Shown here: positions 2,295 through 16,524 of the stretch, piece by piece
How the letters are laid out: the number at the start of each line of letters is the position of its first letter
Position numbering within the stretch: position 1 is the first letter of the stretch
Assembly (NCBI GenBank): GCA_005777515.1
Contig: SXMA01000131.1
Span: 1-16,524 of the forward strand
DNA from: Actinomycetota bacterium
GTDB lineage: Bacteria; Actinomycetota; Actinomycetes; Nanopelagicales; Nanopelagicaceae
Length of the DNA stretch: 16,524 nt
Direction of reading: 5' to 3'
Notes under the pieces: generated by a model
Seen by the model: the letters and a program-made list of their open reading frames with translations, nothing else
Told to the model about the DNA's origin: nothing
Database searches by the model: none
Made by a program: the position numbers and the translations under genes

Positions 2295-2317
2295 TACTTT
2301 TTTCTCTCTTCCTTCTC

Positions 2318-2389
2318 CGGGCAGGTACGTGCCCGACGATCCGTTGGATGAAGCAAGTCCACTTTCGTGGCTGGGCGAAGGGTAGCGCC
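2318..2389 (-). other. Four consecutive small stem-loops in the leader of the ABC ATPase gene
   Basis: Four non-overlapping inverted repeats follow one another. CGGGCA/TGCCCG pairs 2318-2323 with 2330-2335. ATCC/GGAT pairs 2339-2342 with 2346-2349. CCAC/GTGG pairs 2359-2362 with 2367-2370 over a TTTC loop. GGCG/CGCC pairs 2374-2377 with 2386-2389. The stretch is visibly more GC-rich than the surrounding genes. None is followed by a U-tract on either strand, so they are not ordinary terminators. They fit a structured 5' leader of the ATPase mRNA or a small RNA; I recognise no known RNA family. Confidence 0.45.
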
Positions 2390-4817: not shown

Positions 4818-5774
4818 ATGAAATCCAGGGCGCTGTTTATAGCGCTTACTATTTCATTATTTTCTCCATTCACACCAGCAATTGCTGCAGAGCCAAAAGT
4901 TGCCATCGCCTATGACATTGGATTTCTCGGAGATAACTCCTTTAATGATGCGGTTCACCTAGCACTTAAAGCTGCGAAGAAGAAGTATGGGCTAGTTGAG
5001 CCATTTGTTCGCGAGGTTCCGACAAATGGAACTGCAGTAGATCGCCTCACACGTCTGCGATTTTTAGCCAAAAGTGGCTACACACTAATAATTGCTGTTG
5101 GTCCGGGCTATAGACAGACAGTGGCAAGGGTTTCAAAGGAATATACCGAGACTCAGTTTGCAATTATTAACGACAAATCCATTGCACAATTAAATGTCTC
5201 AAATGTCTATTTTAGAGAAGACCATGGTGCCTATCTTGCAGGGGTAGCAGCAGCAAATCTCTCAAAGCGTAAATCAATTGCATTTATTGGAAGTGAACCT
5301 GAACTTCTTGAAAGCTTTACAAAAGGAGCAAGAGCTAATTTTCCAAAGGTAAAAATAAAGAATGTCTCCTATCCGGATTCTGCTGACTCTTTGCGAAGTC
5401 AATTAAATGGAGTAGATATTGCCTATTCAACTTGGGATGGAGACCCTTCAGTTGTAGCGGTTATAAGTGAGAGTTTTGCTGGAAAAATTAGATTGATTTC
5501 AGAGGTCCCGGATCAATATTTTGCTCAGATTCCACAGACAAAATCAATTGTTGTGGCAACGGTTTCAAAGCAGATGACTAAACCCATTTCGCAGTTAGTC
5601 TCAGCAGCACTTGAATCTCGGGCAATTATTGACGTTCTCGATGATGCTGAAGGAATTTATGGCCGTGAATACAACGCAACCAATGGGGGAGTTGGGATAA
5701 CCTTTAACATTGCAGTAAATAGCTCCCTACAGAGCCAAATCAAGCAAGCTCTTCTTCAACTAAAACAGGGATAA
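4818..5774 (+). CDS. Orphan BMP-family substrate-binding protein (PnrA/Med-like)
   Basis: This is a secreted ligand-binding protein of the BMP family (basic membrane protein, PF02608), whose characterised members bind purine nucleosides for ABC import. The 318 residues start with a signal peptide (MKSR, then a hydrophobic stretch ending near AIAA at about 24). The BMP opening follows, AIAYDIGFLGDNSFND. There is no cysteine at the signal end, so no lipobox is visible. It is shorter and more divergent than the transporter-linked paralogue at 12593-13624, and no permease or ATPase gene adjoins it. It starts 3 bases after trpS and is probably coupled to it. Its stop TAA (5772-5774) touches the stop of the convergent SDR gene with no spacer. 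It may be an alternative receptor for the nucleoside importer or may bind a different ligand. Confidence 0.85.
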   Translation: MKSRALFIALTISLFSPFTPAIAAEPKVAIAYDIGFLGDNSFNDAVHLALKAAKKKYGLVEPFVREVPTNGTAVDRLTRLRFLAKSGYTLIIAVGPGYRQTVARVSKEYTETQFAIINDKSIAQLNVSNVYFREDHGAYLAGVAAANLSKRKSIAFIGSEPELLESFTKGARANFPKVKIKNVSYPDSADSLRSQLNGVDIAYSTWDGDPSVVAVISESFAGKIRLISEVPDQYFAQIPQTKSIVVATVSKQMTKPISQLVSAALESRAIIDVLDDAEGIYGREYNATNGGVGITFNIAVNSSLQSQIKQALLQLKQG

Positions 5775-6461
5775 CTACCAGCCAGGGTGTGCGCTCTTTC
5801 CGCCGTCAAAATCAATAATGCTTCCAGATGCAAAATCAAAAGTCTCACTAGTTAGCGCAAGTGCTAGTGTGGCAACTTCTTCAGCGCTTCCAATGCGCCC
5901 TGCTGGCACTGTATTAGTCCAAGAGGAAAAACCATCCGGCCACCTGCTTTCTAACTTATCATCTCCAATAAGACCTAATCTGATTCCATTAATCCGCATG
6001 GGCGCAAGAGATAGAGCAAGTGATCGAGTAACAGACTCTAAAGCTGACTTTGAAGCGCCGTAGATTTCATGACCTGATTTGGAGTTTAATGCTTCGATTG
6101 ATGAAATATTAATGGCTAATGTAGCGCCTTTTGATTTGGCCGCGAGAATTATCTCAATTGGAGAGAGAAGATTTACTTGAAATATCTCTTGGGCTTTAGT
6201 TGATGAATAATGCTTGAGATCAAGGATTGATTGATCAGCAGCATTGTTGATAACGCAATCAATTGCGCCTATTTGTTCAACTAACTCAGTGCCACTTAAA
6301 GCTTTAGAAAGATCCTTCGTGATTACTTCAATACCATCAAGGCCTTTAGAAATATTTATCTGGCCTATTACCCTCCATCCTGCAGCGATAAAGGTTTTGC
6401 AAAGCGCGCTTCCAATGAGCCCGCTAGCACCGGTAATAAGAATAGATTTCTGCTTACTCAT
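5775..6461 (-). CDS. SDR-family NAD(P)-dependent oxidoreductase
   Basis: This is a classical short-chain dehydrogenase/reductase that would oxidise or reduce an alcohol/carbonyl pair using NAD(P)(H). With the start at 6461 it has 228 residues. The cofactor motif TGASGLIG is at 10-17, NNAA at 72-75, Asn97, Ser120/121, and the catalytic YxxxK is Tyr134/Lys138, so the catalytic set is complete. The C-terminal FASGSIIDFDGG is also typical. I chose ATG 6461 rather than the longer start at 6485. It begins right at the family N-terminus, has GGAG upstream, and overlaps the cupin stop by 8 bases (ATGAGTAA), a usual coupling arrangement. It is the last gene of the nucleoside operon. The substrate is unknown. 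Reduction of an aldehyde from the downstream aldolase is one possibility, not shown by the sequence. Confidence 0.88.
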   Translation of the reverse strand: MSKQKSILITGASGLIGSALCKTFIAAGWRVIGQINISKGLDGIEVITKDLSKALSGTELVEQIGAIDCVINNAADQSILDLKHYSSTKAQEIFQVNLLSPIEIILAAKSKGATLAINISSIEALNSKSGHEIYGASKSALESVTRSLALSLAPMRINGIRLGLIGDDKLESRWPDGFSSWTNTVPAGRIGSAEEVATLALALTSETFDFASGSIIDFDGGKSAHPGW

Positions 6462-6879
6462 GAAATAGCTCCGGTAGGTTGGCAATGTTTGGGAATTGAG
6501 AGATTAACTCATCTCTGCCAGCTAATTCCATAGTTGAAAATGCTGGAGCCAGAAAACAGCTCACCAGTGAATAAGACCCTAAAGACTCTGCTGCCATCCA
6601 GGTATTAGCTGGCACTTGGTAGGCAAGTTGTTGTCCATCTTGCTCGAGTCGATGGCTGACAAGTTGACCGTTTTCAATGCTGTGAAGCAGAAGGGGATCG
6701 CCAGATAAATGAAGCCAGAGCTCGGCTTGGGGCAGGCGATGCCAGGCTGAGAAATCGGGGGAGATCACCATGAAATAAATTGCATTGCTCAATTCATCTC
6801 GATAGATCGTTGAATATAAACCACCTTCACCTTCAAGGGGCTGCAAATCAAGTTTTTCTATCAATTCATCCTTGTTCAT
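6454..6879 (-). CDS. DUF985 / Cupin_5 family protein
   Basis: This 141-residue protein belongs to the Cupin_5 (DUF985, PF06172) family, which has no agreed biochemical role. The characteristic order is visible: an N-terminal LxP..EGG..Y..IYR region (12-27), AIYFMV (33-38), WHRL..AELW (46-55), SGDPLLLH (59-66), VPANTWMAA and LVSCFLAPAF. The usual HPEGG stretch is altered to LEGEGG. The start ATG 6879 has AAGGA at good spacing and overlaps the end of the deaminase gene by 14 bases. Its own stop overlaps the SDR start, so it is tightly coupled in the nucleoside operon. Cupins often bind small sugars or metals. It is not the acireductone dioxygenase MtnD, because the GxxxxHxHxxxxE motif is absent. 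Confidence 0.85.
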   Translation of the reverse strand: MNKDELIEKLDLQPLEGEGGLYSTIYRDELSNAIYFMVISPDFSAWHRLPQAELWLHLSGDPLLLHSIENGQLVSHRLEQDGQQLAYQVPANTWMAAESLGSYSLVSCFLAPAFSTMELAGRDELISQFPNIANLPELFHE

Positions 6880-8188
6880 AAAATTCCTTGTGCAAAGTCT
6901 TTACTACCACATCAACTTCTTTCGATAATTCAGAGAAGTCAATCAAGGTTGACTTGCCATCTGCTATTACTTGTTTCCCATCAACCCAAACATCGCTCAC
7001 ATCGCCGCGTCCTGCAGCAAAGACAAGTTGGGCAAATATGTCATGAAGCGGAATTAGATGAGCCTTGTTTAGATCTATTGAGATCAGATCTGCGCTCTTG
7101 CCAACTTCAATACTTCCAATTGAACTCTCAAGCCCTAAAGCTTTTGCTGCCTCAATTGTAGCCATGCGAAATATCGCACTTGCCCTTAAATTTTCTGGAC
7201 CATTGCTTTGGGCATATAGGTTGGCAGCCACTCGCATAACTGCCCACATATCTAGATCATTACTTGATGAGCAACCATCCGTTCCGAGTGCAACACATAT
7301 ATCGCTACTTTGATATTTCTTAATATCTGCAATCCCACTTCCCAATTTGAGGTTACTTCCAGGGCAATGGGCAACTGCAGCTCCTGCCTTCTCTAGTAAT
7401 TTAATGTCTTCATCTGATAAGTGAACGCCGTGTCCTAATAAGGTATGAGAATCTAAGATGCCAGTTTCTTGCAATATGGCAGTTGGAGACTTACCGAAAC
7501 GTTGAGCAACATCATCATTTTCTCCAAGATTTTCAGAGATATGGATACTTATCGAAGCTCCCATCTGCTTGGCTAGCTTTCCAATTTCAACTAGGTGATC
7601 AGGTGAGACCGTGTAGGTTGAATGTGGCATTAGATAGGCAGGAACAGCTGGCCCGCCAACATCTTGAAGTACTTGCTCCCATTTTTTGGCTATCTCTAAT
7701 CTGGCTTCCCAATCAAGGCCATCAAGACCGGTGAAATCAAAGAAGAGTGGGCCAGTTATGTGTCTAATTCCAGTACTTGCTGCGCCTTTATGGGCCGCAT
7801 CTGGATAGAGATACATATCAAGGGTGGTTGTGGTCCCTGCAAGAAGAGATTCCAGTGCGCCAAGTTGGGTTCCAAGGGCAACATTTTTTGGATTCATAAT
7901 TAACCCTTCGGCTGCCCAGACTCGCTCTAGAAATCCTTGAAGATTTACCCCTTCTGCCCAGCCGCGCAGCAATGACATCGCAAGATGGGTATGAGTATTG
8001 ATTAGTCCTGGAGCAATTAACTTACCTTTTGCATCGTAAGTCTTAGCACCTTTTAAACTGCCTGCGCTCTGAATTGTAACAATCTTCTTATCTTTAACTC
8101 CAATAGCGCAATCTTTAAGGACTGTATTTTTGCTATCAGATGTGACAATGTATGTTGCATTATCAATTACTAAATCAAAATTACTCAC
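6866..8188 (-). CDS. mtaD: 5'-methylthioadenosine / S-adenosylhomocysteine deaminase-type amidohydrolase
   Basis: This metal-dependent amidohydrolase of the ATZ/TRZ-MtaD group would deaminate the 6-amino group of MTA, SAH, 5'-deoxyadenosine or adenosine to the inosine form. The 440 residues carry the metal and catalytic set: HTH (His66, His68), HISE (His216, Glu219), LGHGVHLSDED (His253), HCPGSN (274-279) and GTDGCSSSNDLD with Asp304. The segment GLINTHTHLAMSLLRGWAEG closely matches MtaD enzymes. The start is GTG 8188, two bases after the stop of the phosphorylase gene and without a strong Shine-Dalgarno, so it probably relies on re-initiation. Placement next to a phosphorylase with 6-oxopurine features supports deamination before phosphorolysis. 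Guanine or other nucleobase-analogue deamination is a less likely alternative. Confidence 0.88.
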   Translation of the reverse strand: MSNFDLVIDNATYIVTSDSKNTVLKDCAIGVKDKKIVTIQSAGSLKGAKTYDAKGKLIAPGLINTHTHLAMSLLRGWAEGVNLQGFLERVWAAEGLIMNPKNVALGTQLGALESLLAGTTTTLDMYLYPDAAHKGAASTGIRHITGPLFFDFTGLDGLDWEARLEIAKKWEQVLQDVGGPAVPAYLMPHSTYTVSPDHLVEIGKLAKQMGASISIHISENLGENDDVAQRFGKSPTAILQETGILDSHTLLGHGVHLSDEDIKLLEKAGAAVAHCPGSNLKLGSGIADIKKYQSSDICVALGTDGCSSSNDLDMWAVMRVAANLYAQSNGPENLRASAIFRMATIEAAKALGLESSIGSIEVGKSADLISIDLNKAHLIPLHDIFAQLVFAAGRGDVSDVWVDGKQVIADGKSTLIDFSELSKEVDVVVKTLHKEFYEQG

Positions 8189-8190
8189 TT

Positions 8191-8931
8191 TTAAGCCAAA
8201 ACCTTTAGTGCGCCTTCAATAACTGTTAAAGCTTTTGATTTTCCTAGATCAAGGGCCTTATTTATCTCATCCATTGTTATCTCAGCCTCACTTAATCCTG
8301 CTGCAGGATTAACAACTAGCGCAATGCTGGCATAGGCGATTCCAAGTTCTCTTGCCAGACTCACTTCAGGACATCCTGTCATTCCAACAACCGTCGCGCC
8401 AGCAAGGGCTGATAGTCGAATCTCTGAAGGAGTTTCAAATCTAGGCCCATTAAATCCGGCATAGACTCCATTTTCATGAAGCAAAATTCCTGACTCCTTA
8501 GCGCTTCGGCGAAGTGCGCTCTGTATTTCTGCATCATATGGGCGAGTAAGGTCAACATGTTGAACACCAGGTTTTGATCCATCTGAGAAGGTGTGTTGTC
8601 TACCCGAGGTGAAGTCAATAAAGTCATCAATTAGGCAAAGATCTCCGGGGGATAGCTTTGGATCGATTCCGCCAACTACATTAATTGCAATTATCTGCTC
8701 AACACCCAAATCCTTCATAGCCTTGATATTGGCTCGATAATTAATTAAATGCGGCGGGATGCTATGGCCAACTCCATGGCGGGTTAGAAATATAAGGCGA
8801 GCGCCGTTCCATTCCCCACTTCTAATTTGAGCTTTTCCATAGCGGGTGTCCAACTCTCTAGATTCACCATCTTTTAGTGCGGGAAGGTCATAGAAGCCAG
8901 TGCCAGCAATTAATCCAATCGTTTTTGGCAT
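8191..8931 (-). CDS. mtnP: Methylthio-nucleoside phosphorylase (MTAP family, probably methylthioinosine type)
   Basis: This purine nucleoside phosphorylase-family enzyme (246 residues) would split MTA or MTI with phosphate to methylthioribose-1-phosphate plus the base. Landmarks are the GTG phosphate loop (10-12), TRHGVGHSIPPHLINYRAN (phosphate and ribose contacts, 50-68), GVYAGFNGPRFET (155-167), VVGMTGCPEVSLARE (182-195) and LVVNPAAG (205-212). Asn208 aligns with the Asp that contacts the 6-amino group in human MTAP (MATDYDCW region). Asn at this place is typical of 6-oxopurine enzymes such as PNP and the Pseudomonas methylthioinosine phosphorylase, so MTI/hypoxanthine specificity is inferred. 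The N-terminus MPKTIGLIAGTG fixes ATG 8931. It lies 4 bases after the ATPase stop with a poor Shine-Dalgarno, and two bases before the deaminase gene. Confidence 0.9.
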   Translation of the reverse strand: MPKTIGLIAGTGFYDLPALKDGESRELDTRYGKAQIRSGEWNGARLIFLTRHGVGHSIPPHLINYRANIKAMKDLGVEQIIAINVVGGIDPKLSPGDLCLIDDFIDFTSGRQHTFSDGSKPGVQHVDLTRPYDAEIQSALRRSAKESGILLHENGVYAGFNGPRFETPSEIRLSALAGATVVGMTGCPEVSLARELGIAYASIALVVNPAAGLSEAEITMDEINKALDLGKSKALTVIEGALKVLA

Positions 8932-8935
8932 CGAA

Positions 8936-10444
8936 TCAGGATGCCAGGCCAGCCATCAATCGGCCGATGGTATTTCTATCTGCCTCTTTGGAATTAAATA
9001 TGGCAACAATCTTTCCGTTAGAGATGACTGCAATTCTGTCAGCAAGGGAGAGAATTTCATCAAGCTCCGCAGATACTAAGAGAACGGCGGCTCCAGCGTC
9101 ACGAGCAGCGATCAATTGGTTATGGATAAATTCAATTGATCCCACATCAACGCCTCGAGTTGGTTGAGCGGCAACGACTACATCTAGTTGTTGGCTCAAC
9201 TCTCTTGCAACAACTACCTTCTGCTTATTTCCACCAGAAAGTGAGCTAGCAGAGAGATATGCATCCGGCGCCCTGATATCAAATTTCTCAACGAGGGCTT
9301 CACCATTGTTGGCAACTTCCTCTAAGTTTCTAATCCAACCTTTGGCAAATGGTGCCTGATCAAATCTATTTAAAACTAAGTTATCCGCGATTGAGTAAGA
9401 AGTAACTAAACCATGCTTCTCGCGGTCTTCAGGAATATGAGAAACTCCCGCCAGATGGGCAGCCCTCGGATTCAGGTTTGGGATCTCTTGACCTTTAACA
9501 ATTACTTCACCACTTAACCGCGAGCGCATACTGCAGATAGCTTCAACTAATTCTCGCTGACCATTTCCTTCAACGCCTGCAATACCAAGAATCTCTCCAG
9601 CATGAACTTCTAGCGATAAGTCTTTAACAGATTCGAGTTTTCGATCATCACTTACTCGAAGATTCTTTATCGACAGAAGGACATCTTTGGGTTTTGCTTG
9701 ACTCTTTTCGACGCGCAGAACAACTTCGCGGCCCACCATCATTTGGGCAAGTTTTGCTTCACTACTCTCCTTTGGGGTAGTAGTTCCCATCAACTTCCCA
9801 CCACGAAGAACCGCAATTCGGTCAGCAACTGCCATAACTTCACGCAGCTTATGAGTGATAAAGAGAATTCCAACCCCACGTTTGGCGAGATTTCTCAAAA
9901 CTTCAAGGAGTTCATCAGTTTCTTGGGGGGTCAACACTGCTGTTGGTTCATCAAGAATTAGTAACTTAACATCGCGCCTTAGGGCTTTAAGAATTTCAAC
10001 TCTTTGAGCCATACCAACCGGAAGATCTTCGATGATGGCATCAGGATCAACTTCAAGGCCATATTTCTCGGAGAGGGCTAAAGCCTCTTTTCTCGCCTGC
10101 TTGATATTTACCACACCGAACCGCTTTGGTTCATCCCCTAGAATCAGGTTTTCCGTAACGCTCATTACTGGAACTAATTGAAAATGCTGGTGCACCATTC
10201 CTACACCACTAGCAATTGCTGCAGCGGTATCACCACTTTCCATAACTGTGCCATTTATCTTTATCGTGCCAGCATCTGGCTTCACCAATCCAAAAACTGC
10301 TTTAACTAAAGTTGACTTACCAGCGCCATTTTCGCCAAGGAGAGCAAGAATCTCACCCTCTTTAACTGTTAGTGAGATATTTTCATTGGCAATCACTGAA
10401 CCAAAGCCCTTGCTTACACCTTCAACCTCAAGAAGAGTCCTCAT
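8936..10444 (-). CDS. Nucleoside ABC importer ATP-binding protein, double-domain (NupO/NupA-like)
   Basis: This cytoplasmic ATPase of 502 residues has two fused nucleotide-binding domains, as in RbsA and the nucleoside importers NupO/NupA. Domain 1 has Walker A GENGAGKST (37-45), Q-loop in VGMVHQHFQL, signature replaced by LPVGMAQR (141-148) and Walker B LLILDEPTAVLTP (161-173). Domain 2 has a degenerate Walker A, GVEGNGQREL, an intact LSGGNKQK signature, and VVVAAQPTRGVDVG in place of a canonical Walker B. This asymmetry is normal for the family. ATG 10444 has AAGGAG six bases upstream and overlaps the permease stop (ATGA). It is encoded between the two permeases and the phosphorylase. Nucleoside as substrate is inferred from family and neighbours. 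Confidence 0.94.
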   Translation of the reverse strand: MRTLLEVEGVSKGFGSVIANENISLTVKEGEILALLGENGAGKSTLVKAVFGLVKPDAGTIKINGTVMESGDTAAAIASGVGMVHQHFQLVPVMSVTENLILGDEPKRFGVVNIKQARKEALALSEKYGLEVDPDAIIEDLPVGMAQRVEILKALRRDVKLLILDEPTAVLTPQETDELLEVLRNLAKRGVGILFITHKLREVMAVADRIAVLRGGKLMGTTTPKESSEAKLAQMMVGREVVLRVEKSQAKPKDVLLSIKNLRVSDDRKLESVKDLSLEVHAGEILGIAGVEGNGQRELVEAICSMRSRLSGEVIVKGQEIPNLNPRAAHLAGVSHIPEDREKHGLVTSYSIADNLVLNRFDQAPFAKGWIRNLEEVANNGEALVEKFDIRAPDAYLSASSLSGGNKQKVVVARELSQQLDVVVAAQPTRGVDVGSIEFIHNQLIAARDAGAAVLLVSAELDEILSLADRIAVISNGKIVAIFNSKEADRNTIGRLMAGLAS

Positions 10445-11421
10445 GACTTCTCCTTCTCATAAGGAATACCTTCTGCAGCAGGTGGGCGAACTTTTCCAGC
10501 TGAGATTGCTAAAACAACAATTGTCAGAATATATGGAAGCATGTTTATGAATTGGGGAGGTATCTCTACTACTTCATCAATCATTAGCTGATTAGTTACG
10601 GCTTGGGTCAATCCAAAGAATAAGGCAGCGGCAAGTGCGCCTAGTGGATTCCATCTACCAAAGATCATGATGGCAAGAGCGGTAAAGCCTTTTCCGGCAG
10701 TGAATCCTCGCTCAAATATTCCAACCGCCTCAAGGGCAAGGTATGAGCCAGCAAGTCCACCAACAGCTCCTGCGACTGTGACATTTAAATAGCGAAGTCT
10801 TGTTACTGAAACTCCTGCAGTATCAGCACTTGAGGGGTGCTCTCCAACTGCTCTTGAGCGCAGACCCCATGAAGTTTTATAGAGCGCAAACCAGAGACCT
10901 AGAATAAAAAAGATTCCAAAGTAGGTAATCGGGCCGTGGAAAGATAGAACTGGGCCAAGGATGGGCCAAGCTCCAACTACCGGAAGGTCAATCGGGTCAA
11001 GAGTTGAGGGAATTGAATAATTCTGGCGATAGTAAAAGGATGTAATACCTGCAGCTAAAATATTTAAAATTACTCCAGCAATAATCTGATCCATTTTCCA
11101 ATTAACTGCCATCAGGGCTAAGAGCAGCCCCATCATTGCGCCAGTAAAGACCCCAACAAGCATTCCTTGCACGGTATTTTTCAAAATAGCGCCAGCAAAA
11201 AAAGCGGTGAAGGCCGAAATCAGCATGGTTCCTTCGATACCAATATTTACAACTCCAGTTCGCTCACACATAACTCCAACCATTGCGGCAAGTGCTAGGG
11301 GAAGTGCGAATTGAATTGCAGTGTATAAAACTGATGTAGCTACTAATCCATCTTTACTATAGAAATAGGTGAAAGCTGCAAGGAAGGCAAAGATCAAATA
11401 ATGACTAGTGCGTAGTTTCAT
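10441..11421 (-). CDS. Nucleoside ABC importer permease, NupQ/NupC-like
   Basis: This integral membrane permease of the BPD_transp_2 (branched-chain amino-acid/ribose/nucleoside) family has 326 residues and about eight or more hydrophobic segments. Family marks are CERTGVVNIGIEGTMLISAF and the cytoplasmic coupling region GFTALAIMIFGRWNPLGALA. I chose ATG 11421 rather than TTG 11433. It follows GGAG by six bases, and its A is shared with the preceding stop (TAATG), a coupling junction; the TTG lies on the ribosome-binding site itself. The stop overlaps the ATPase start (ATGA). It would pair with the permease encoded at 11421-12485 to form the channel. Confidence 0.93.
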   Translation of the reverse strand: MKLRTSHYLIFAFLAAFTYFYSKDGLVATSVLYTAIQFALPLALAAMVGVMCERTGVVNIGIEGTMLISAFTAFFAGAILKNTVQGMLVGVFTGAMMGLLLALMAVNWKMDQIIAGVILNILAAGITSFYYRQNYSIPSTLDPIDLPVVGAWPILGPVLSFHGPITYFGIFFILGLWFALYKTSWGLRSRAVGEHPSSADTAGVSVTRLRYLNVTVAGAVGGLAGSYLALEAVGIFERGFTAGKGFTALAIMIFGRWNPLGALAAALFFGLTQAVTNQLMIDEVVEIPPQFINMLPYILTIVVLAISAGKVRPPAAEGIPYEKEKS

Positions 11422-12485
11422 TAGTTGCTCCAACCACTAGTCATTGCCACATTCTCCTTGCGATTCTTAAAGAATCGAGCAAGAAGTGGAGCGGTGACAA
11501 AGAATAAAATCATGGCAAGAAGTAGATCTACCAACTCAGGGGCAACTCCTGCTTCAAACTGAACCGTAGAACCGCTTGCACGCATTCCGCCAATTAGAAT
11601 TGCAGCAGGGATAACGCCAAGTGGATTTGCTCTGCCAAGCAAGGCCACAGTAATTCCATCAAAGCCAAGCCCTGCGTTAAAGGCGGGCTCAAACCTTCCA
11701 ATAATGCTCAAAGTTTCAACTGCTCCAGCTACCCCTGCGACTGCTCCACCAATTAACATGCTTAACATGATGGTTTTCTTCACCGAGATTCCGGCATACC
11801 ATCCGGCATTTTTATTTCTTCCAATTGTTTCAATACTAAAACCAGTAGTGGTGTTTCTCATGATCCACCAGAGTATGATGGAGAGCCCAATAGCTAGAAA
11901 GAATCCTAGGGGCAGGCCTAACAAATCAGGCATTTGAGCCGAATCTTGAATCTTTGGAGTTCTAGTAAGTGGCTGATCTGGCTCTTTAAATGGATTACTA
12001 GTTAAGTAATCAGAGAGCGCAATAACAATGCTATTTAACATAATAGTTGTGATGACTTCATGAACTCCGCGGTAAGCCTTAAGCACTGCTGCAACTAAAG
12101 CAACTAGCGCTCCAAAGAATGCGCCAAAGATTAAAGCTAGTGGGATATGTACCAAAGCAGGCAGCCCAACAAAGGTATATCCAGCCCATGCAGAGGCAAG
12201 CGCTCCAGAGATTAATTGGCCTTGAGCTCCGATATTAAACAGACCCGCTCTAAGACAAATCGCTACTGCAAGGCCGCTGAGAATCAAAGGCGTGGCTTTG
12301 GCTAGCGTGATTGCGATTCCATCAAAGGATCCAAAAGCAGTGGTGAATAGAACTCTATAAGCTAAGAGTGGATTAATTCCTTGAATAAAAATTAAAATGC
12401 CGCCAAAGGCTAATGCAACAACAATTGATAACAGCGGAACTAATATTGGGCTGAAATCAAGTTTTCTGCTTTGCTTAGCATCCAC
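11421..12485 (-). CDS. Nucleoside ABC importer permease, NupP/NupB-like
   Basis: This is the other transmembrane subunit of the importer, about 354 residues, BPD_transp_2 family. It contains CLRAGLFNIGAQGQLISGAL, YRGVHEVITTIMLNSIVIAL and GFDGITVALLGRANPLGVIP, typical of the longer permease of nucleoside systems. I favour GTG 12485, which follows GGAG by six bases. A TTG at 12497 is in frame, would add four residues, and overlaps that ribosome-binding site, so the start is uncertain by four codons. It lies 107 bases after the binding-protein stop with a strong stem-loop in between, and it shares one base with the next permease start. Confidence 0.93.
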   Translation of the reverse strand: MDAKQSRKLDFSPILVPLLSIVVALAFGGILIFIQGINPLLAYRVLFTTAFGSFDGIAITLAKATPLILSGLAVAICLRAGLFNIGAQGQLISGALASAWAGYTFVGLPALVHIPLALIFGAFFGALVALVAAVLKAYRGVHEVITTIMLNSIVIALSDYLTSNPFKEPDQPLTRTPKIQDSAQMPDLLGLPLGFFLAIGLSIILWWIMRNTTTGFSIETIGRNKNAGWYAGISVKKTIMLSMLIGGAVAGVAGAVETLSIIGRFEPAFNAGLGFDGITVALLGRANPLGVIPAAILIGGMRASGSTVQFEAGVAPELVDLLLAMILFFVTAPLLARFFKNRKENVAMTSGWSN

Positions 12486-12531
12486 AAGCTTCTCCAATGA
12501 TTTTTGAATCTAAAACGTCTTTCCTTGATTC

Positions 12532-12570
12532 AAAGGGAGATACGCCCTTTTTAAAAGCGTATCTCCCTTT
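12532..12570 (-). terminator. 14-bp intercistronic stem-loop after the binding-protein gene (partial terminator or mRNA 3' stabiliser)
   Basis: AAAGGGAGATACGC (12532-12545) is perfectly complementary to GCGTATCTCCCTTT (12557-12570), with an 11-base loop. In the minus-strand transcript the stem ends with only UUU before GAATC, so a weak or partial terminator is more likely than a full stop. A processing or stabilising hairpin that keeps binding-protein mRNA in excess over permease mRNA is equally possible. Confidence 0.72.
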
Positions 12571-12592
12571 CTTTATAACCTTAACTTAAGTC

Positions 12593-13624
12593 TTAGAGCT
12601 TAACTCCGGTCTTAACGGTTCCGTTAAGAACCTTTGGAGTAATTGCCTTCAACTTAGCTTGATATGCAGCAGGAACTTTGCTTGAGAAGTCGTGTAGTGG
12701 AGCAAGTCCGACTTTTCCAAAGTAGTTTCCGCCCTTATCTGTTCCTTCAACAATGGATTTTACAACTGCAGCAACGCCCTTATCGATTAACTTCATCGCT
12801 GAAGTTACAAGGCAAGGACGAGCCTCAGGAAGTGTTCCCCATTGATCGCTATCAACGCCGATGCAATATGCACCTTTCTTCTTTGCAACGCGGAGTAGCG
12901 CACCGTTTCCGGTGTTTCCACCTGCGCCGAAGATGACGTCATAACCCTGGGAGAGAAGCTGCTGAGCAGTTGTTCCGCCCCATGCTGGGTCATTAAATGC
13001 GTTATCTGGAGCGTGGTAAATCAATTTAGTTGCTGGATACTTCTTGCCGAGTTCCTTAGCGGCATATGCAACGCCGTTACGGTATCCCTCTCCGAAGTAA
13101 CGAACTGGTGGAACAAGATCAGTTCCAAGAACTGCGCCAGTCTTACCAGTCTTTGTTAGATGTCCAGCTAGGTATCCTGCAAGGAATCCAGCCTTATCTT
13201 CTGGGAAAACTAGTCCAGTTAGATTTGGAACCGCAGCTCCTTGGAATTGATCTACTCCAATGAACTTAATTTTTGGATAATCAGCTGCAGCCTTAGTCAT
13301 GGCCTCTGCCATGAGGAAGCCAACGCCGATAATTACATTGTATTTCTTGCTAGCAAACTGGCCGATATTTGTGGCATAGTCTTTTGGATCTGTCGTTTCG
13401 ATGTATTTAGCGAAACCGCCATTAACATTTGCCGCAGCTTTGGCGCCTTCCCATGCAGATTGGTTAAATGATTTGTCATCAACTTTTCCAGTATCAGTTA
13501 CTAAACCGATGCAGAAAAGTTTTCCGGTACCGCAATCACTTTCCGATGCTGCCTTAGATGGTGCCGCAAAACCTAGAGCTGTAAGTGCAACTACAGCTAC
13601 TACAGATATCACGCGCTTGATCAT
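12593..13624 (-). CDS. BMP-family nucleoside-binding protein of the ABC importer
   Basis: This extracytoplasmic receptor would deliver nucleosides to the adjacent permeases. It has 343 residues: signal peptide MIKRVISVVAVVALTALGFA followed by a likely cleavage near SKA (about 25), then the BMP fold opening GLVTDTGKVDDKSFNQSAWE (40-59). ATG 13624 was chosen because AGAGGAG precedes it at good spacing and the signal peptide begins there. The frame stays open upstream to 13831, but that extension lacks a signal peptide and looks non-coding. No cysteine stands at the signal cleavage site, so it does not look like a lipoprotein. Cys31 and Cys38 could form a disulfide. It is the first gene of an eight-gene minus-strand operon. 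Purine nucleosides are the known ligands of PnrA/BmpA relatives; the exact ligand here is inferred. Confidence 0.92.
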   Translation of the reverse strand: MIKRVISVVAVVALTALGFAAPSKAASESDCGTGKLFCIGLVTDTGKVDDKSFNQSAWEGAKAAANVNGGFAKYIETTDPKDYATNIGQFASKKYNVIIGVGFLMAEAMTKAAADYPKIKFIGVDQFQGAAVPNLTGLVFPEDKAGFLAGYLAGHLTKTGKTGAVLGTDLVPPVRYFGEGYRNGVAYAAKELGKKYPATKLIYHAPDNAFNDPAWGGTTAQQLLSQGYDVIFGAGGNTGNGALLRVAKKKGAYCIGVDSDQWGTLPEARPCLVTSAMKLIDKGVAAVVKSIVEGTDKGGNYFGKVGLAPLHDFSSKVPAAYQAKLKAITPKVLNGTVKTGVKL

Positions 13625-13628
13625 GAAT

Positions 13629-13635
13629 CTCCTCT
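13629..13635 (-). promoter_or_regulatory. Strong ribosome-binding site fixing the binding-protein start
   Basis: On the minus strand AGAGGAG lies four bases before ATG 13624 (six before it if counted from the AGG core). This decides in favour of the start with a signal peptide over any upstream in-frame ATG. Confidence 0.85.
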
Positions 13636-13645
13636 CAAAGATGAT

Positions 13646-13688
13646 CTCTGGCATTGAGGTATGCCCGAGGGTAAATCGATCGATTACC
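13646..13688 (-). promoter_or_regulatory. Two adjacent hairpins in the 5' leader of the nucleoside importer operon
   Basis: Hairpin A pairs CTCTGGCAT (13646-13654) with ATGCCCGAG (13661-13669), with one mismatch and a 6-base loop. Hairpin B (13670-13688) is built on the 12-base palindrome AATCGATCGATT (13674-13685), flanked by GGTA and TACC with one unpaired A. They adjoin exactly and lie just upstream of the Shine-Dalgarno of the binding-protein gene. Hairpin B could instead be a protein operator, as it is nearly a perfect 18-base palindrome. No known riboswitch consensus is recognised. Confidence 0.5.
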
Positions 13689-13884
13689 AGTGGAGAAATA
13701 AGTTCATTTTTATGACTATTTCGGGGAGGCTCACTGATACGGGGAATCCTATCCATGCCAGAATTGAAGGAGAAATGCTGGCCTAATCCAATAAACCCGT
13801 GTTCCATCACATTTTCGTTACCTATTTTCACCTTTGACCATGACTCTGGTTCCCAAGTATCAACTCTGGCTTTAGACTGCTTGG
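13689..13884. promoter_or_regulatory. Divergent intergenic region between the importer operon and mtnA
   Basis: Both operons must be started from this stretch. For mtnA (+) there are two candidates. TAGACT (13873-13878) is a TANNNT -10 that would start transcription at about the GTG itself, leaderless. TTGACC (13834-13839) with an 18-base spacer to TATCAA (13858-13863) is a -35/-10 pair. For the minus operon, ATCCTA (13746-13751, minus-strand TAGGAT) is a possible -10 without a good -35. CGGGGA occurs twice, 18 bases apart (13722 and 13740). No tRNA or other RNA gene is seen. Confidence 0.4.
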
Positions 13885-14895
13885 GTGAGAACTATCGATT
13901 TTCTCAAACAGGGAGATGGGGCGATAACTCTGATTGATCAGCGCCTGCTTCCTCATGAGAGGAAAGTCCTCACAATAAAAACTCACGAAGAATTAATTGA
14001 AGCGATCCAAACTCTGGCTGTTCGTGGTGCCCCAGCCCTGGGAGTCGCCGGAGCGCTGGGGGTGGCCCTAATTGCCCTTCGCAGCCAGCAAGAGAGCTGG
14101 AGCCAAGAGCAGAGAGCTAGCGCAATTGCTGCCTTGAGAGCTGCTCGCCCAACAGCAGTCAATCTTGCTTGGGGAGTTGATCAAGTAACTCCGGAATTAG
14201 TTAACGGCCCTTCTGCTGTTTTGGAATCAGCTTTAGCTATTAGCCGCGCTGATGGCCTTGCAAATCGAGCGATGGGAAAGCTTGGGGCTACATACCTATT
14301 ACAGCAGTGTGGAATGAGAAAACTCAGGATCCTTACCCATTGCAATACCGGATCGCTAGCGACAAGTGATTGGGGAACAGCGCTTGGAGTAATTCGAGAG
14401 CTAAGTGATCAGGGATATATCCAGGAAGTATTTGCCGATGAAACTCGCCCCCTGCTTCAAGGCTCTCGCTTAACGGCCTGGGAGTTAAGCGAGGCTGGAA
14501 TTAACTATCGAATCCTTCCAGATGCAGCGGCAGCAAGCGCTCTTTTCTCAGGACTTATTGATGCAGTACTAATTGGTGCAGATCGCATCGCTAGAAATGG
14601 TGATAGCGCAAATAAAATTGGATCACTTGGTGTAGCAGTTGCTGCTAAAGAGCGTGGCATTCCATTTCTAGTAGTTGCTCCAGAGTCAACAATTGATAGA
14701 TCACTTGCTAGCGGAGCTGAGATAGAGATTGAATTTAGGGCAGATAGCGAGGTAACCCACTTTGCAGGAAAAGCTGTCGCACCAATTGGGGCTAAGAGTT
14801 ATAACCCCGCATTTGATGTGACTTTAGCTAGATATATCACCGCAATAGTTACTGAAAAGTGCGTCTATAACCTCGAAGCTGGGGATGAATTATGA
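13885..14895 (+). CDS. mtnA: S-methyl-5-thioribose-1-phosphate isomerase
   Basis: MtnA interconverts methylthioribose-1-phosphate and methylthioribulose-1-phosphate (aldose to ketose) in MTA salvage and in the DHAP shunt. Its 336 residues are close to the usual 340-350. Visible family motifs are VRGAPALGVAGALGV near the N-terminus, the catalytic Cys in LTHCNTGSLATSDWGTALG, and the catalytic Asp in VLIGADRIARNGDSANKIGS, followed by PFLVVAPESTID. GTG 13885 gives the standard MRTIDFL opening. There is no Shine-Dalgarno, and a TANNNT -10 ends 6 bases upstream, so leaderless translation is likely. It is the first gene of the plus-strand operon with the aldolase, cdd and deoA. A related activity on ribose-1-phosphate is conceivable. 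Eukaryotic eIF2B-like relatives are excluded by the Cys/Asp pair. Confidence 0.95.
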   Translation: MRTIDFLKQGDGAITLIDQRLLPHERKVLTIKTHEELIEAIQTLAVRGAPALGVAGALGVALIALRSQQESWSQEQRASAIAALRAARPTAVNLAWGVDQVTPELVNGPSAVLESALAISRADGLANRAMGKLGATYLLQQCGMRKLRILTHCNTGSLATSDWGTALGVIRELSDQGYIQEVFADETRPLLQGSRLTAWELSEAGINYRILPDAAAASALFSGLIDAVLIGADRIARNGDSANKIGSLGVAVAAKERGIPFLVVAPESTIDRSLASGAEIEIEFRADSEVTHFAGKAVAPIGAKSYNPAFDVTLARYITAIVTEKCVYNLEAGDEL

Positions 14896-14941
14896 ATGCA
14901 CTATGTCATTATGGCTTTGAGATAAAGACCAGAGGATAACG

Positions 14942-15592
14942 ATGGTCTCCGAGATAAATTCACTTAATTCAGAGAGCGAAATTGCCTCTCTTATCAAAAT
15001 CGGAAAAGCAGTAGTTGATAGGGGATTAGTTGTGGGCTCTGGAGGTAATCTCTCCATGTTATTAAAAGGTGGCAAAGAATTTTTAATAACGAGAACTGGT
15101 AGTGAACTTGATCAATTAGATCAGAGCAGCTTTGCTCTAATGGATCTTGATGGAAATATTGCTAAGGGATCAGCAAAGCCCTCATCAGAGTATCGCGTTC
15201 ATCTAGAGAGCTATCGAACTAGGAATGACATAAATACTTGTATTCATTTGCATCCTCAAGCAAGTATTTTTGCAGCAGCAATTGGTGAGGAGATACAGCT
15301 TGTGACTACCGATCATTTGTATTACTTGCGAAAAATTATCCGCATTCCTTGGATTGCGCCTGGGACTCAAGAGGTGGCAGAGGCAACCGCGAATGCCCTT
15401 AAAGATTGCAATGTTGTCATTCTTGAAAACCATGGCTGTGTAGTGGTTGCCGATAATCCTCGCCTTGCTTACTCGCGAGCCTTAAACCTTGAAGAGGCTG
15501 CTGAAATGACGATTCGTAGCGCCTTATTGAAAGTTAAGCCAAAGTTAGTCCCGCAAGAATTTGAGCAGTACCTTAAGCAGCAGGGGCTATGA
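14942..15592 (+). CDS. Class II (zinc) aldolase, FucA/Ald2-like
   Basis: This 216-residue protein belongs to the class II aldolase/adducin family. Metal and catalytic residues follow the fuculose-phosphate aldolase pattern: GGNLS (34-38), ITRTGS (49-54), PSSE with Glu83, HLHP with His102 and His104, and ENHG with His164. The Glu-to-His spacing of 19 and His-to-His spacing of 60 nearly equal E. coli FucA (Glu73, His92/94, His155). In the MtnB dehydratase the third His is much further away and the catalytic Glu lies after the HxH. Cleavage of methylthioribulose-1-phosphate or 5-deoxyribulose-1-phosphate to DHAP plus an aldehyde is inferred from the gene following mtnA by 46 bases. ATG 14942 has AGAGG upstream. 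Ribulose-1-phosphate or fuculose-1-phosphate are alternative substrates. Confidence 0.88.
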   Translation: MVSEINSLNSESEIASLIKIGKAVVDRGLVVGSGGNLSMLLKGGKEFLITRTGSELDQLDQSSFALMDLDGNIAKGSAKPSSEYRVHLESYRTRNDINTCIHLHPQASIFAAAIGEEIQLVTTDHLYYLRKIIRIPWIAPGTQEVAEATANALKDCNVVILENHGCVVVADNPRLAYSRALNLEEAAEMTIRSALLKVKPKLVPQEFEQYLKQQGL

Positions 15593-15607: not shown

Positions 15608-16003
15608 ATGAATGTTGATTGGGAGCTATTAAAGAAAGAGGCGATTAGCGCTTCAAAGAAGGCTTATGCCCCATATTCAAATTTCCCTGTTGGAGCTGCC
15701 GGCTTAGTTAGTGATGGGCGAATAGTTAGTGGCTGCAATATAGAAAATGCTAGCTATGGCTTAACACTCTGCGCTGAATGTTCGATGATCTCCAATTTAC
15801 TGATGAGCGGCGGCAGAAAACTGATTGCCGTGGTCTGTGTTGATGGCAAGGGGGAACTTCTCTCGCCTTGTGGTCGTTGCCGCCAACTTTTATTTGAGCA
15901 TGGTGGAAATGAACTTCAACTCTTAACGCCATCTGGACCTCAAAACATGTCGGTGATTCTTCCTTGGGGTTTTGGCCCTGATGACTTAGAAAAGAAGAAT
16001 TAA
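15608..16003 (+). CDS. cdd: Cytidine deaminase
   Basis: Cytidine deaminase converts cytidine and deoxycytidine to uridine and deoxyuridine for pyrimidine salvage. The 131 residues are typical of the small tetrameric zinc enzyme. Substrate motif GCNIENASYG (42-51), CAE with zinc ligand Cys55 and proton shuttle Glu57, and PCGRCRQ with Cys88 and Cys91 are all present. The CAEC variant is frequent in actinobacteria. ATG 15608 has AGGAG eight bases upstream, and the gene begins 15 bases after the aldolase stop. It feeds uridine-type nucleosides to the phosphorylase encoded next. Confidence 0.96.
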   Translation: MNVDWELLKKEAISASKKAYAPYSNFPVGAAGLVSDGRIVSGCNIENASYGLTLCAECSMISNLLMSGGRKLIAVVCVDGKGELLSPCGRCRQLLFEHGGNELQLLTPSGPQNMSVILPWGFGPDDLEKKN

Positions 16004-16008
16004 GAATA

Positions 16009-16524
16009 ATGAGTGAAGCCTTTGATGCTATCGAGATTATTTCAGCAAAGCGTGATCGAAACGAGTTAAGCAATCTGCAGATTGACTGGATTGTTGATGC
16101 CTACACCCGTGGAGTGGTAGCAGATGAACAAGTCTCAGCCTTATTGATGGCGATTTTATTAAATGGAATGAATATGCGTGAAATTTCGCGTTGGACTGAT
16201 GCAATGATCAATAGCGGCGAGAGAATGAATTGGTCCAGTCTTGGAATTCCAACAGTTGATAAGCATTCAACAGGTGGCGTTGGAGATAAAATCACACTTC
16301 CACTTGCGCCACTAGTTGCTGCCTGTGGTGCTGCTGTTCCACAACTATCAGGTAGAGGTCTTGGCCATACTGGTGGAACGCTCGATAAAATGGAATCAAT
16401 TCCAGGCTGGCAAGCATCACTAAGTAATGAGCAGATGCTCAAAGTATTACAAGATGTAGGGGCGGTAATTTGCGCTGCAGGTGCCGGTTTAGCGCCAGCT
16501 GATAAGAAGCTTTATGCGCTGCGA
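16009..16524 (+). CDS. deoA: Thymidine phosphorylase / pyrimidine-nucleoside phosphorylase (3'-truncated)
   Basis: This enzyme phosphorolyses thymidine, deoxyuridine or uridine to the base and (deoxy)ribose-1-phosphate. The frame is open from ATG 16009 to the window end, giving 172 of roughly 430 residues. Diagnostic motifs are KHSTGGVGDK (85-94, phosphate site) and SGRGLGHTGGTLDKMESIPG (114-133, the family signature). It begins 5 bases after the cdd stop. The visible part cannot separate thymidine-specific DeoA from the broader pyrimidine phosphorylase. The ribose-phosphate product would join the same pool handled by the rest of this operon or by deoB/deoC elsewhere. Confidence 0.95.
   Translation, partial: MSEAFDAIEIISAKRDRNELSNLQIDWIVDAYTRGVVADEQVSALLMAILLNGMNMREISRWTDAMINSGERMNWSSLGIPTVDKHSTGGVGDKITLPLAPLVAACGAAVPQLSGRGLGHTGGTLDKMESIPGWQASLSNEQMLKVLQDVGAVICAAGAGLAPADKKLYALR

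Follow-up and report, generated by a model that had tools for sequence, protein, structure and literature searches.

Several described systems carry the sugar moieties of 5'-methylthioadenosine (MTA) and 5'-deoxyadenosine to an aldol cleavage. In the dihydroxyacetone phosphate (DHAP) shunt of Escherichia coli ATCC 25922, Rhodospirillum rubrum and Rhodopseudomonas palustris, MtnN plus MtnK, or MtnP, is followed by MtnA and the aldolase Ald2 (PMC10986504, PMC12632272; these and all papers cited below are drawn on through parts of their text). In 5-deoxyribose salvage, clustered genes encode a phosphorylase or a kinase (DrdK), an MtnA-like isomerase (DrdI) and a FucA-like aldolase (DrdA), and some clusters include predicted sugar transporters (PMC6079011). 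Finally, a 5'-deoxyadenosine deaminase, the phosphorylase MtiP and the isomerase MJ0454 have been described in Methanocaldococcus jannaschii, where an aldolase was suggested to act next (PMC6302742). Here we compare these systems with a pair of divergent operons on a 16,524-base stretch of DNA from a freshwater actinobacterium (Nanopelagicaceae, Actinomycetota), hereafter the window, which is the entire contig SXMA01000131.1 of a 947-kb, 141-contig metagenome-assembled genome rated 68% complete.

We read the two operons, with a probability of about 0.74, as a nucleoside catabolic island in which import, deamination, phosphorolysis, isomerization by MtnA and aldol cleavage would yield DHAP and an aldehyde. 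All of the substrates, the direction of flow and the specificity of the importer are what we infer in the following scheme. A BMP-type ABC importer would take up nucleosides, and a deaminase would convert MTA and 5'-deoxyadenosine, both by-products of S-adenosylmethionine, to their inosine forms, from which a phosphorylase of the 5'-methylthioinosine (MTI) type would release hypoxanthine and 5-(methylthio/deoxy)ribose-1-phosphate. MtnA would isomerize the latter, and a short class II aldolase would then produce DHAP plus methylthioacetaldehyde or acetaldehyde. Ordinary nucleosides would be handled by a cytidine deaminase and a pyrimidine phosphorylase encoded on the mtnA strand; in close relatives, genes for DeoC, a mutase and aldehyde dehydrogenases lie downstream.

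The locus resembles the DHAP shunt in its MtnA-type isomerase, in the class II aldolase gene adjoining mtnA and in the predicted products, DHAP and an aldehyde; the E. coli operon also has a putative transporter gene (PMC12632272). It differs in its entry by a deaminase and an MTI-type phosphorylase, rather than by a nucleosidase and kinase or by MtnP, in its four-gene importer and joined pyrimidine-nucleoside genes, and in the aldolase/dehydrogenase fusion that, among the matches listed, takes the place of the short aldolase in 23 of the 28 family genomes with MtnA, a feature beyond the sequence-only reading that first drew attention to this DNA. Because the entry differs, we consider the locus a variant and not a plain member of the shunt. 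It likewise resembles 5-deoxyribose salvage in its isomerase and FucA-like aldolase, but the consulted part of that report mentions no deaminase step, and the match of the window's aldolase to DrdA (6btd, its closest PDB structure) is distant at 93 bits (PMC6079011). The M. jannaschii route shares the order of steps, with deamination, phosphorolysis of the inosine form, MtnA-type isomerization and a proposed aldolase; that route is archaeal, and the part of the source consulted speaks of neither an operon nor an importer. Deamination also precedes phosphorolysis by the MTA deaminase and MTI phosphorylase of Pseudomonas aeruginosa, for which the same partial source mentions no coupling to an aldolase (PMC6302742).

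The sequence-only reading knew of no description of its exact combination; that a deaminase-first route as such had gone undescribed is not supported, given the published M. jannaschii enzymes and their proposed aldolase (PMC6302742). The DHAP shunt, 5-deoxyribose salvage and deamination ahead of phosphorolysis are thus already known. What appears to be new, as far as the literature was searched, is a bacterial operon that joins a deaminase-first entry to an importer, together with the swapping of aldolases beside mtnA; the combination was not found described for these bacteria in a search that was judged largely from titles and abstracts and that left most subscription journals outside its coverage.

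Two divergent operons

The genes are real and correctly placed, as confirmed by open reading frame (ORF) calls and profile searches, and they form two divergent operons. The minus-strand operon runs bmpA, permease, permease, ATPase, phosphorylase, deaminase, Cupin_5 and a short-chain dehydrogenase/reductase (SDR); 95 bases separate bmpA from the first permease gene, and the other junctions are overlaps or gaps of a few bases at most. The plus-strand operon runs mtnA, class II aldolase, cytidine deaminase and pyrimidine phosphorylase, the last being cut by the end of the contig. The genes of the proposed pathway are as follows.

12593..13624, minus strand: bmpA, first gene of its operon, for a binding protein of the BMP/PnrA type with a signal peptide (PF02608, Bmp, 150 bits; start ATG at 13624)
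11421..12497, minus strand: importer permease 1 (ORF, from sequence reading and gene order; relatives have the same placement between bmpA and permease 2)
10441..11433, minus strand: importer permease 2 (ORF overlapping both neighbours, from sequence reading and gene order; order conserved)
8936..10444, minus strand: importer ATPase (ORF that reads as an ABC ATPase; order conserved)
8191..8931, minus strand: MTI-type 5'-deoxynucleoside phosphorylase (NF006599, 263 bits, cut-off 223)
6866..8188, minus strand: MTA/5'-deoxyadenosine deaminase, an amidohydrolase (PF01979, Amidohydro_1, 221 bits)
13885..14895, plus strand: mtnA, 5-methylthioribose-1-phosphate/5-deoxyribose-1-phosphate isomerase (TIGR00512, 382 bits, cut-off 279)
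14942..15592, plus strand: short class II (FucA-like) aldolase, predicted 5-(methylthio)/5-deoxyribulose-1-phosphate aldolase (PF00596, Aldolase_II, 148 bits, cut-off 22.2)
15608..16003, plus strand: cytidine deaminase, cdd (NF004064, 177 bits, cut-off 74)
16009..16524, plus strand: pyrimidine/thymidine phosphorylase, truncated by the contig end at 16524 (NF004490, 297 bits, cut-off 269)

The identities of these genes, their conserved order and their co-occurrence are matters of observation. The same order, as far as the contigs extend, is found in eight public genomes (L002-L009), which excludes a chance arrangement; protein identities to the window are 83-99% (89-98% in L004), except for one SDR at 65% in L008. 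The sequence-only reading, which delimited the system as 6866..15592, had the core right but left off two genes at either end, Cupin_5 and SDR at one and the cytidine deaminase and pyrimidine phosphorylase at the other.

A BMP/PnrA-type ABC importer is recognizable from the combination of a Bmp binding protein, two permeases and an ATPase, the last three by sequence reading and gene order. The closest PDB structures to BmpA are 7x0r (Lbp) and 2fqw (membrane lipoprotein tmpC). The profile queries for bmpA and SDR started one codon off the start codons found later (bmpA from 13621).

Predicted entry by deamination

The order of deamination before phosphorolysis, as the sequence-only reading proposed, is supported by the Asn motif of the phosphorylase, by the adjacency of the two genes and by the co-occurrence of their orthologs. 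The phosphorylase passes the MTI phosphorylase (MTIP) model and scores 255 bits against the MTA phosphorylase (MTAP) model, under its cut-off of 275. Its base pocket carries the motif NPAAG; the corresponding sequence is TNAAAG in two aligned purine nucleoside phosphorylases (PNPs) and TDYD in the MTAP-like proteins of L055 and L058. An Asn/Asp difference in the base pocket sets specificity for 6-oxo versus 6-amino purines, and the window's protein carries the Asn motif found in MTIP and PNP alike, not the MTAP motif, a pattern compatible with 6-oxopurine nucleosides as substrates. The nearest solved structure, 3ozb, is labelled methylthioadenosine phosphorylase; it has the same NPAAG motif, and we take it to be the MTI phosphorylase of P. 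aeruginosa. Where the two aligned PNPs carry a His, presumably a contact for the 5'-hydroxyl, the window's phosphorylase has a Met.

For the deaminase, the nearest solved structure is 4f0r, named as an MTA/S-adenosylhomocysteine (SAH) deaminase. Its best NCBIfam model is PRK09045 (373 bits), and the 5'-deoxyadenosine deaminase model NF005557 gives 297 bits, both being under cut-off.

Entry through a nucleosidase and kinase, or through MtnP, is not indicated, the phosphorylase scoring above the MTI cut-off and below the MTAP one (no search for a nucleosidase was made). MtnK, which the sequence-only reading did not see in the window, is likewise absent from all 15 genomes of the genus, although four of 121 family genomes do have it.

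Proposed aldol cleavage beside mtnA

The best evidence that an aldol cleavage follows MtnA is the replacement of the short aldolase, at one and the same site, by a distantly related enzyme that shares its aldolase domain. MtnA is present in eight of the 15 genus genomes, and the gene after mtnA encodes the short aldolase in four of them (G000, G041, G092, G116) and a RhaEW-like aldolase/dehydrogenase fusion in the other four (G029, G086, G098, G110). In the genus these mtnA-aldolase loci are flanked by bmpA on one side and by cdd-deoA on the other, that of G116 being split over two contigs. In L002-L009, likewise, the gene after mtnA is the short aldolase in three, the fusion in four and the end of the contig in one; the fusion genes of L003 and L007 overlap the 3' end of mtnA. 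Beyond the genus, a short aldolase follows mtnA in G053, there without cdd. The two proteins are far apart, with one common stretch of 67 residues at 30% identity (E 6e-06).

On a tree of MtnA, a clade of nine close rows holds four with the short aldolase, four with the fusion and one at a contig edge; aldolase type needs three changes on the tree, and well-supported branches force at least two. The tree comprised 56 rows (44 fusion, 4 short, 6 with none and 2 at a contig edge), the six being L044, L045, L056 and L057 (outgroup), L027 and L042; rows under 300 amino acids, rows with identical last 300 residues and the window's own MtnA were left out, and the outgroup is not confined to one side of a branch. 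As read from these sequences, the aldolase is swapped repeatedly among close relatives, the enzyme of the cleavage step apparently having been replaced more than once.

The fusion scores 531 bits against the model for bifunctional rhamnulose-1-phosphate aldolase/SDR proteins (TIGR02632, cut-off 567.75). Its architecture is that of RhaEW (rhamnulose-1-phosphate aldolase/lactaldehyde dehydrogenase), but RhaEW is reported, in the part of the source consulted, always to lie inside rha loci (PMC3870299), whereas the fusion lies directly after mtnA. Since RhaEW of Chloroflexus converts L-rhamnulose-1-phosphate to DHAP and lactate (PMC3870299), the fusion may, by analogy, oxidize its own aldehyde product.

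The closest PDB structure to MtnA is 1t9k. MtnA scores 150 bits against the ribose-1,5-bisphosphate (R15P) isomerase model TIGR00511 (cut-off 314), and the short aldolase 73.5 bits against the haloarchaeal ribulose-1-phosphate aldolase model NF053831 (cut-off 300); on these scores a non-carboxylating pentose bisphosphate pathway was set aside. The predicted activity of the short aldolase, judged from its sequence and setting, is cleavage of 5-(methylthio/deoxy)ribulose-1-phosphate. Relatives at 25-32% identity occur in ten further family genomes, and a homolog search for abundance, which carried no genomic context, returned 345 matches, of which the best 120 were viewed.

Co-occurrence and function

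All co-occurrence searches covered one set of 121 family genomes. MtnA is encoded in 28, so that the module extends well beyond the single genome to which the sequence-only reading feared it might be limited. MTIP occurs in 29 (all 28 MtnA genomes and G005), and a deaminase ortholog (E<=1e-90) also in 29, which are G005, G033, G107 and 26 genomes with MtnA; of the two MtnA genomes outside this count, the fragment in G032 runs into a contig end and MTIP of G056 lies at one. The short aldolase (>=78% identity) is found in five genomes (G000, G041, G092, G116, G053) and the fusion (>=65% identity), among the matches listed, in 23, including G056 and G076, which were counted on fragments alone; weak fusion fragments elsewhere could escape. 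Among those matches the five and the 23 make up exactly the 28 MtnA genomes with zero overlap (Fisher p 4e-28, with shared descent ignored). The proposed link between the module and a BMP-type importer is borne out, in that 27 of 29 genomes have importer genes within the MTIP locus and 25 have the full set of four there; the two exceptions are contigs of about 4 kb. These MTIP-locus counts take in the window, which was counted by hand.

Classical, or universal, methionine salvage was rejected for the family: MtnB (E<=1e-20) and acireductone dioxygenase (ARD, MtnD; E<=1e-10) were each found in 0/121 genomes by searches whose controls were positive, for example in Bacillus subtilis (MtnC was not searched). 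Absences from the window's own genome carry little weight by themselves because it is only 68% complete; the wider survey sustains the sequence-only reading as to the absence of an MtnB/ARD route.

The position of mtnA and the aldolase on the same strand as cytidine deaminase and pyrimidine phosphorylase raises another possibility, that the pair acts on ribose-1-phosphate from ordinary nucleosides, giving ribulose-1-phosphate and then DHAP and glycolaldehyde, and so bypasses phosphopentomutase. Ribose metabolism by methionine-salvage enzymes in B. subtilis, reportedly the subject of a 2013 title, would count in its favor. Haloarchaea degrade guanosine in a comparable fashion, through a ribulose-1-phosphate aldolase that yields DHAP and glycolaldehyde, the latter being reduced to ethylene glycol (PMC9700705). 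However, MTIP accompanies MtnA and one or other aldolase in 28 of 28 genomes (the fusion among the matches listed), many relatives lack cdd and deoA beside mtnA, the haloarchaeal aldolase and R15P isomerase models score far under their cut-offs, and in relatives the ordinary route has its own DeoC and mutase next door. We therefore consider it unlikely as the main function, although a side activity on ribose-1-phosphate is possible.

In the genus loci of G041, G086, G092, G098 and G116, deoA is followed by two aldehyde-dehydrogenase genes, DeoC and a mutase of the phosphoglucomutase/phosphomannomutase (PGM/PMM) type; a different gene occupies that position in G110. One of the dehydrogenase-like proteins (L002:13407-14249, 280 amino acids) aligns with the aldehyde dehydrogenase profile over its N-terminal half alone and is conserved beside a full-length copy and DeoC.

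The sequence-only reading gave the set a dual role, in detoxification and in the harvest of imported nucleosides. LipA, a radical S-adenosylmethionine (SAM) enzyme that yields 5'-deoxyadenosine, is present in 114 of the 121 genomes (26 of these with MtnA) versus 28 with MtnA. The module is thus optional, and harvest fits better than obligatory detoxification: the island would serve nucleoside catabolism with a 5'-deoxy branch. The same counts bear on the view that it serves mainly for sulfur recovery and for detoxification of MTA and 5'-deoxyadenosine that the cell itself produces, with other nucleosides left to the importer. Such a role would have a precedent in Rhodospirillum and Rhodopseudomonas, where the DHAP shunt salvages sulfur with enzymes similar to those found here (PMC10986504, PMC5893883). 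Most relatives, however, manage without the module, importer genes belong to the MTIP locus in nearly every case, and the E. coli shunt is reported, in the part of the source consulted, as non-detoxifying (PMC10986504); mainly detoxifying use accordingly appears very improbable to us.

Several observations weigh against nucleoside catabolism with a 5'-deoxy branch, our preferred reading. The residue at the His position varies among phosphorylase orthologs, and the Planktophila-type ortholog of L186 has His. G033 and G107 carry the deaminase ortholog without MtnA or MTIP, and G005, rated 99% complete, has MTIP, the deaminase and a RuBisCO-like protein (RLP) with neither MtnA nor either aldolase found, although these could be missing from the assembly because a contig end lies where its transketolase-RLP genes begin. 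The MTIP locus contains cdd in only 11 of 29 genomes (deoA in 10). The short aldolase falls under the cut-off of each of its best 25 NCBIfam models, and G042, G049 and G114, all of which lack MtnA, carry relatives at 56% identity, clustered there with genes for transporters, an FGGY kinase, a zinc-type dehydrogenase and a hydroxyacid dehydrogenase; homology alone thus does not fix its substrate.

RuBisCO-like proteins and transketolases in relatives

In several family genomes the mtnA-fusion pair is followed by split transketolase genes and RLP, some adding a sugar-type ABC importer and MtnK, while Planktophila-type genomes have RLP alone at this place. L071:1-7862 (similarly L019, L030, L041, L047) shows, consecutively, the fusion, a sugar-type ABC importer, MtnK, a SnoaL-like protein, split transketolase and RLP, a gene content that would likely provide an entry for free 5-deoxypentoses. 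RLP is found in 18/121 family genomes and in 0/15 of the genus, for which an MTA-isoprenoid shunt (DeepYkr-type RLP) was therefore rejected. The nearest solved structure is 3qfw, which we infer to be RLP1 of R. palustris, and the metal site reads KDDH in all copies among those listed. RLP1 is a 5-methylthioribulose-1-phosphate 1,3-isomerase (PMC5893883).

In L027:1246-7406 (genome G121), mtnA overlaps a transketolase gene by four bases and is followed by RLP, MTIP and the deaminase, while in L042 (genome G122) mtnA, mtnK, transketolase and RLP are consecutive; the fusion was not found in these two draft genomes, where no short-aldolase search was made. More distant RLPs (51-54%; L168-L170) occur in G046, G023 and G035, with no mtnA or transketolase in the fetched stretch.

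It is conceivable, although we hold this tentatively and on balance doubt it, that any of three interchangeable modules could cleave the ketose-1-phosphate made by MtnA, namely the short aldolase, the RhaEW-like fusion, or a RuBisCO-like 1,3-isomerase followed by split transketolase. These would be fed either by nucleosides, through importer, deaminase and phosphorylase, or by free 5-deoxypentoses, through a sugar ABC importer and MtnK.

Neighboring genes and control regions

The remaining features of the two operons are the following.

6454..6879, minus strand: Cupin_5 (DUF985) protein (PF06172, 90 bits; overlaps the deaminase gene, likely same operon)
5775..6461, minus strand: SDR oxidoreductase, last gene of its operon (PF13561, 90.5 bits; ATG at 6461)
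13625..13884, no strand assigned: putative divergent promoter region between bmpA and mtnA (nine sequences agree almost throughout about 35 bases ahead of the GTG of mtnA)

Of the 29 MTIP genomes, 21 have Cupin_5 in this block and 25 have the SDR. The Planktophila-type genomes G028, G073, G085 and G091 have the SDR without Cupin_5, G053 has neither, and the blocks of G032, G046 and G056 are cut by contig ends. The case of G053 suggests that Cupin_5 is dispensable for the pathway, and a comparison of Cupin_5 with solved structures returned four matches, all hypothetical or uncharacterized, from which no function could be derived. The association of Cupin_5, SDR and fusion with mtnA extends past the family. 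In Leucobacter, Cupin_5 shares one locus with mtnA and importer genes in 9/9 loci; in L059 (Acidimicrobiales), Cupin_5 adjoins mtnA, which is preceded by a fusion at 34% identity; and in another actinobacterium, L081:4608-11269 carries, consecutively, SDR, fusion, a uridine-phosphorylase-like protein, a GntR regulator, mtnA and an amidohydrolase. Cupin_5 thus stands beside mtnA or MTIP in several actinobacterial lineages (window 6454-6879, L044:15895-16392, L059:3557-4063), and both it and the SDR are possible members of the pathway.

The near-invariant bases of the intergenic region (window 13850-13890) abut the GTG of mtnA, with a TAGACT box a few bases upstream, and the mtnA transcript is possibly leaderless. 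An Rfam scan of the window at the gathering threshold found no RNA element at the two operons; its single match was an msiK cis-regulatory RNA (RF01747, 64.5 bits, 2302-2361, minus strand), which lies upstream of a malK/msiK-like ABC ATPase gene at 1212-2294, distant from both. A second gene for a BMP-type binding protein (4818-5774, plus strand) lies beside trpS, with no adjoining permease or ATPase gene.

Implications

If our reading is correct, the RhaEW-like fusion would acquire a testable function outside rhamnose loci, and the family would lend itself to comparing the different ways in which nature carries out one reaction. Should the wider scheme of interchangeable modules hold as well, the RLP-transketolase module would represent an aldolase-independent cleavage of 5-methylthio- or 5-deoxyribulose-1-phosphate. 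For the family itself, the finding would mean that some members feed, by way of a modular pathway, on 5'-deoxynucleosides discarded by other cells.

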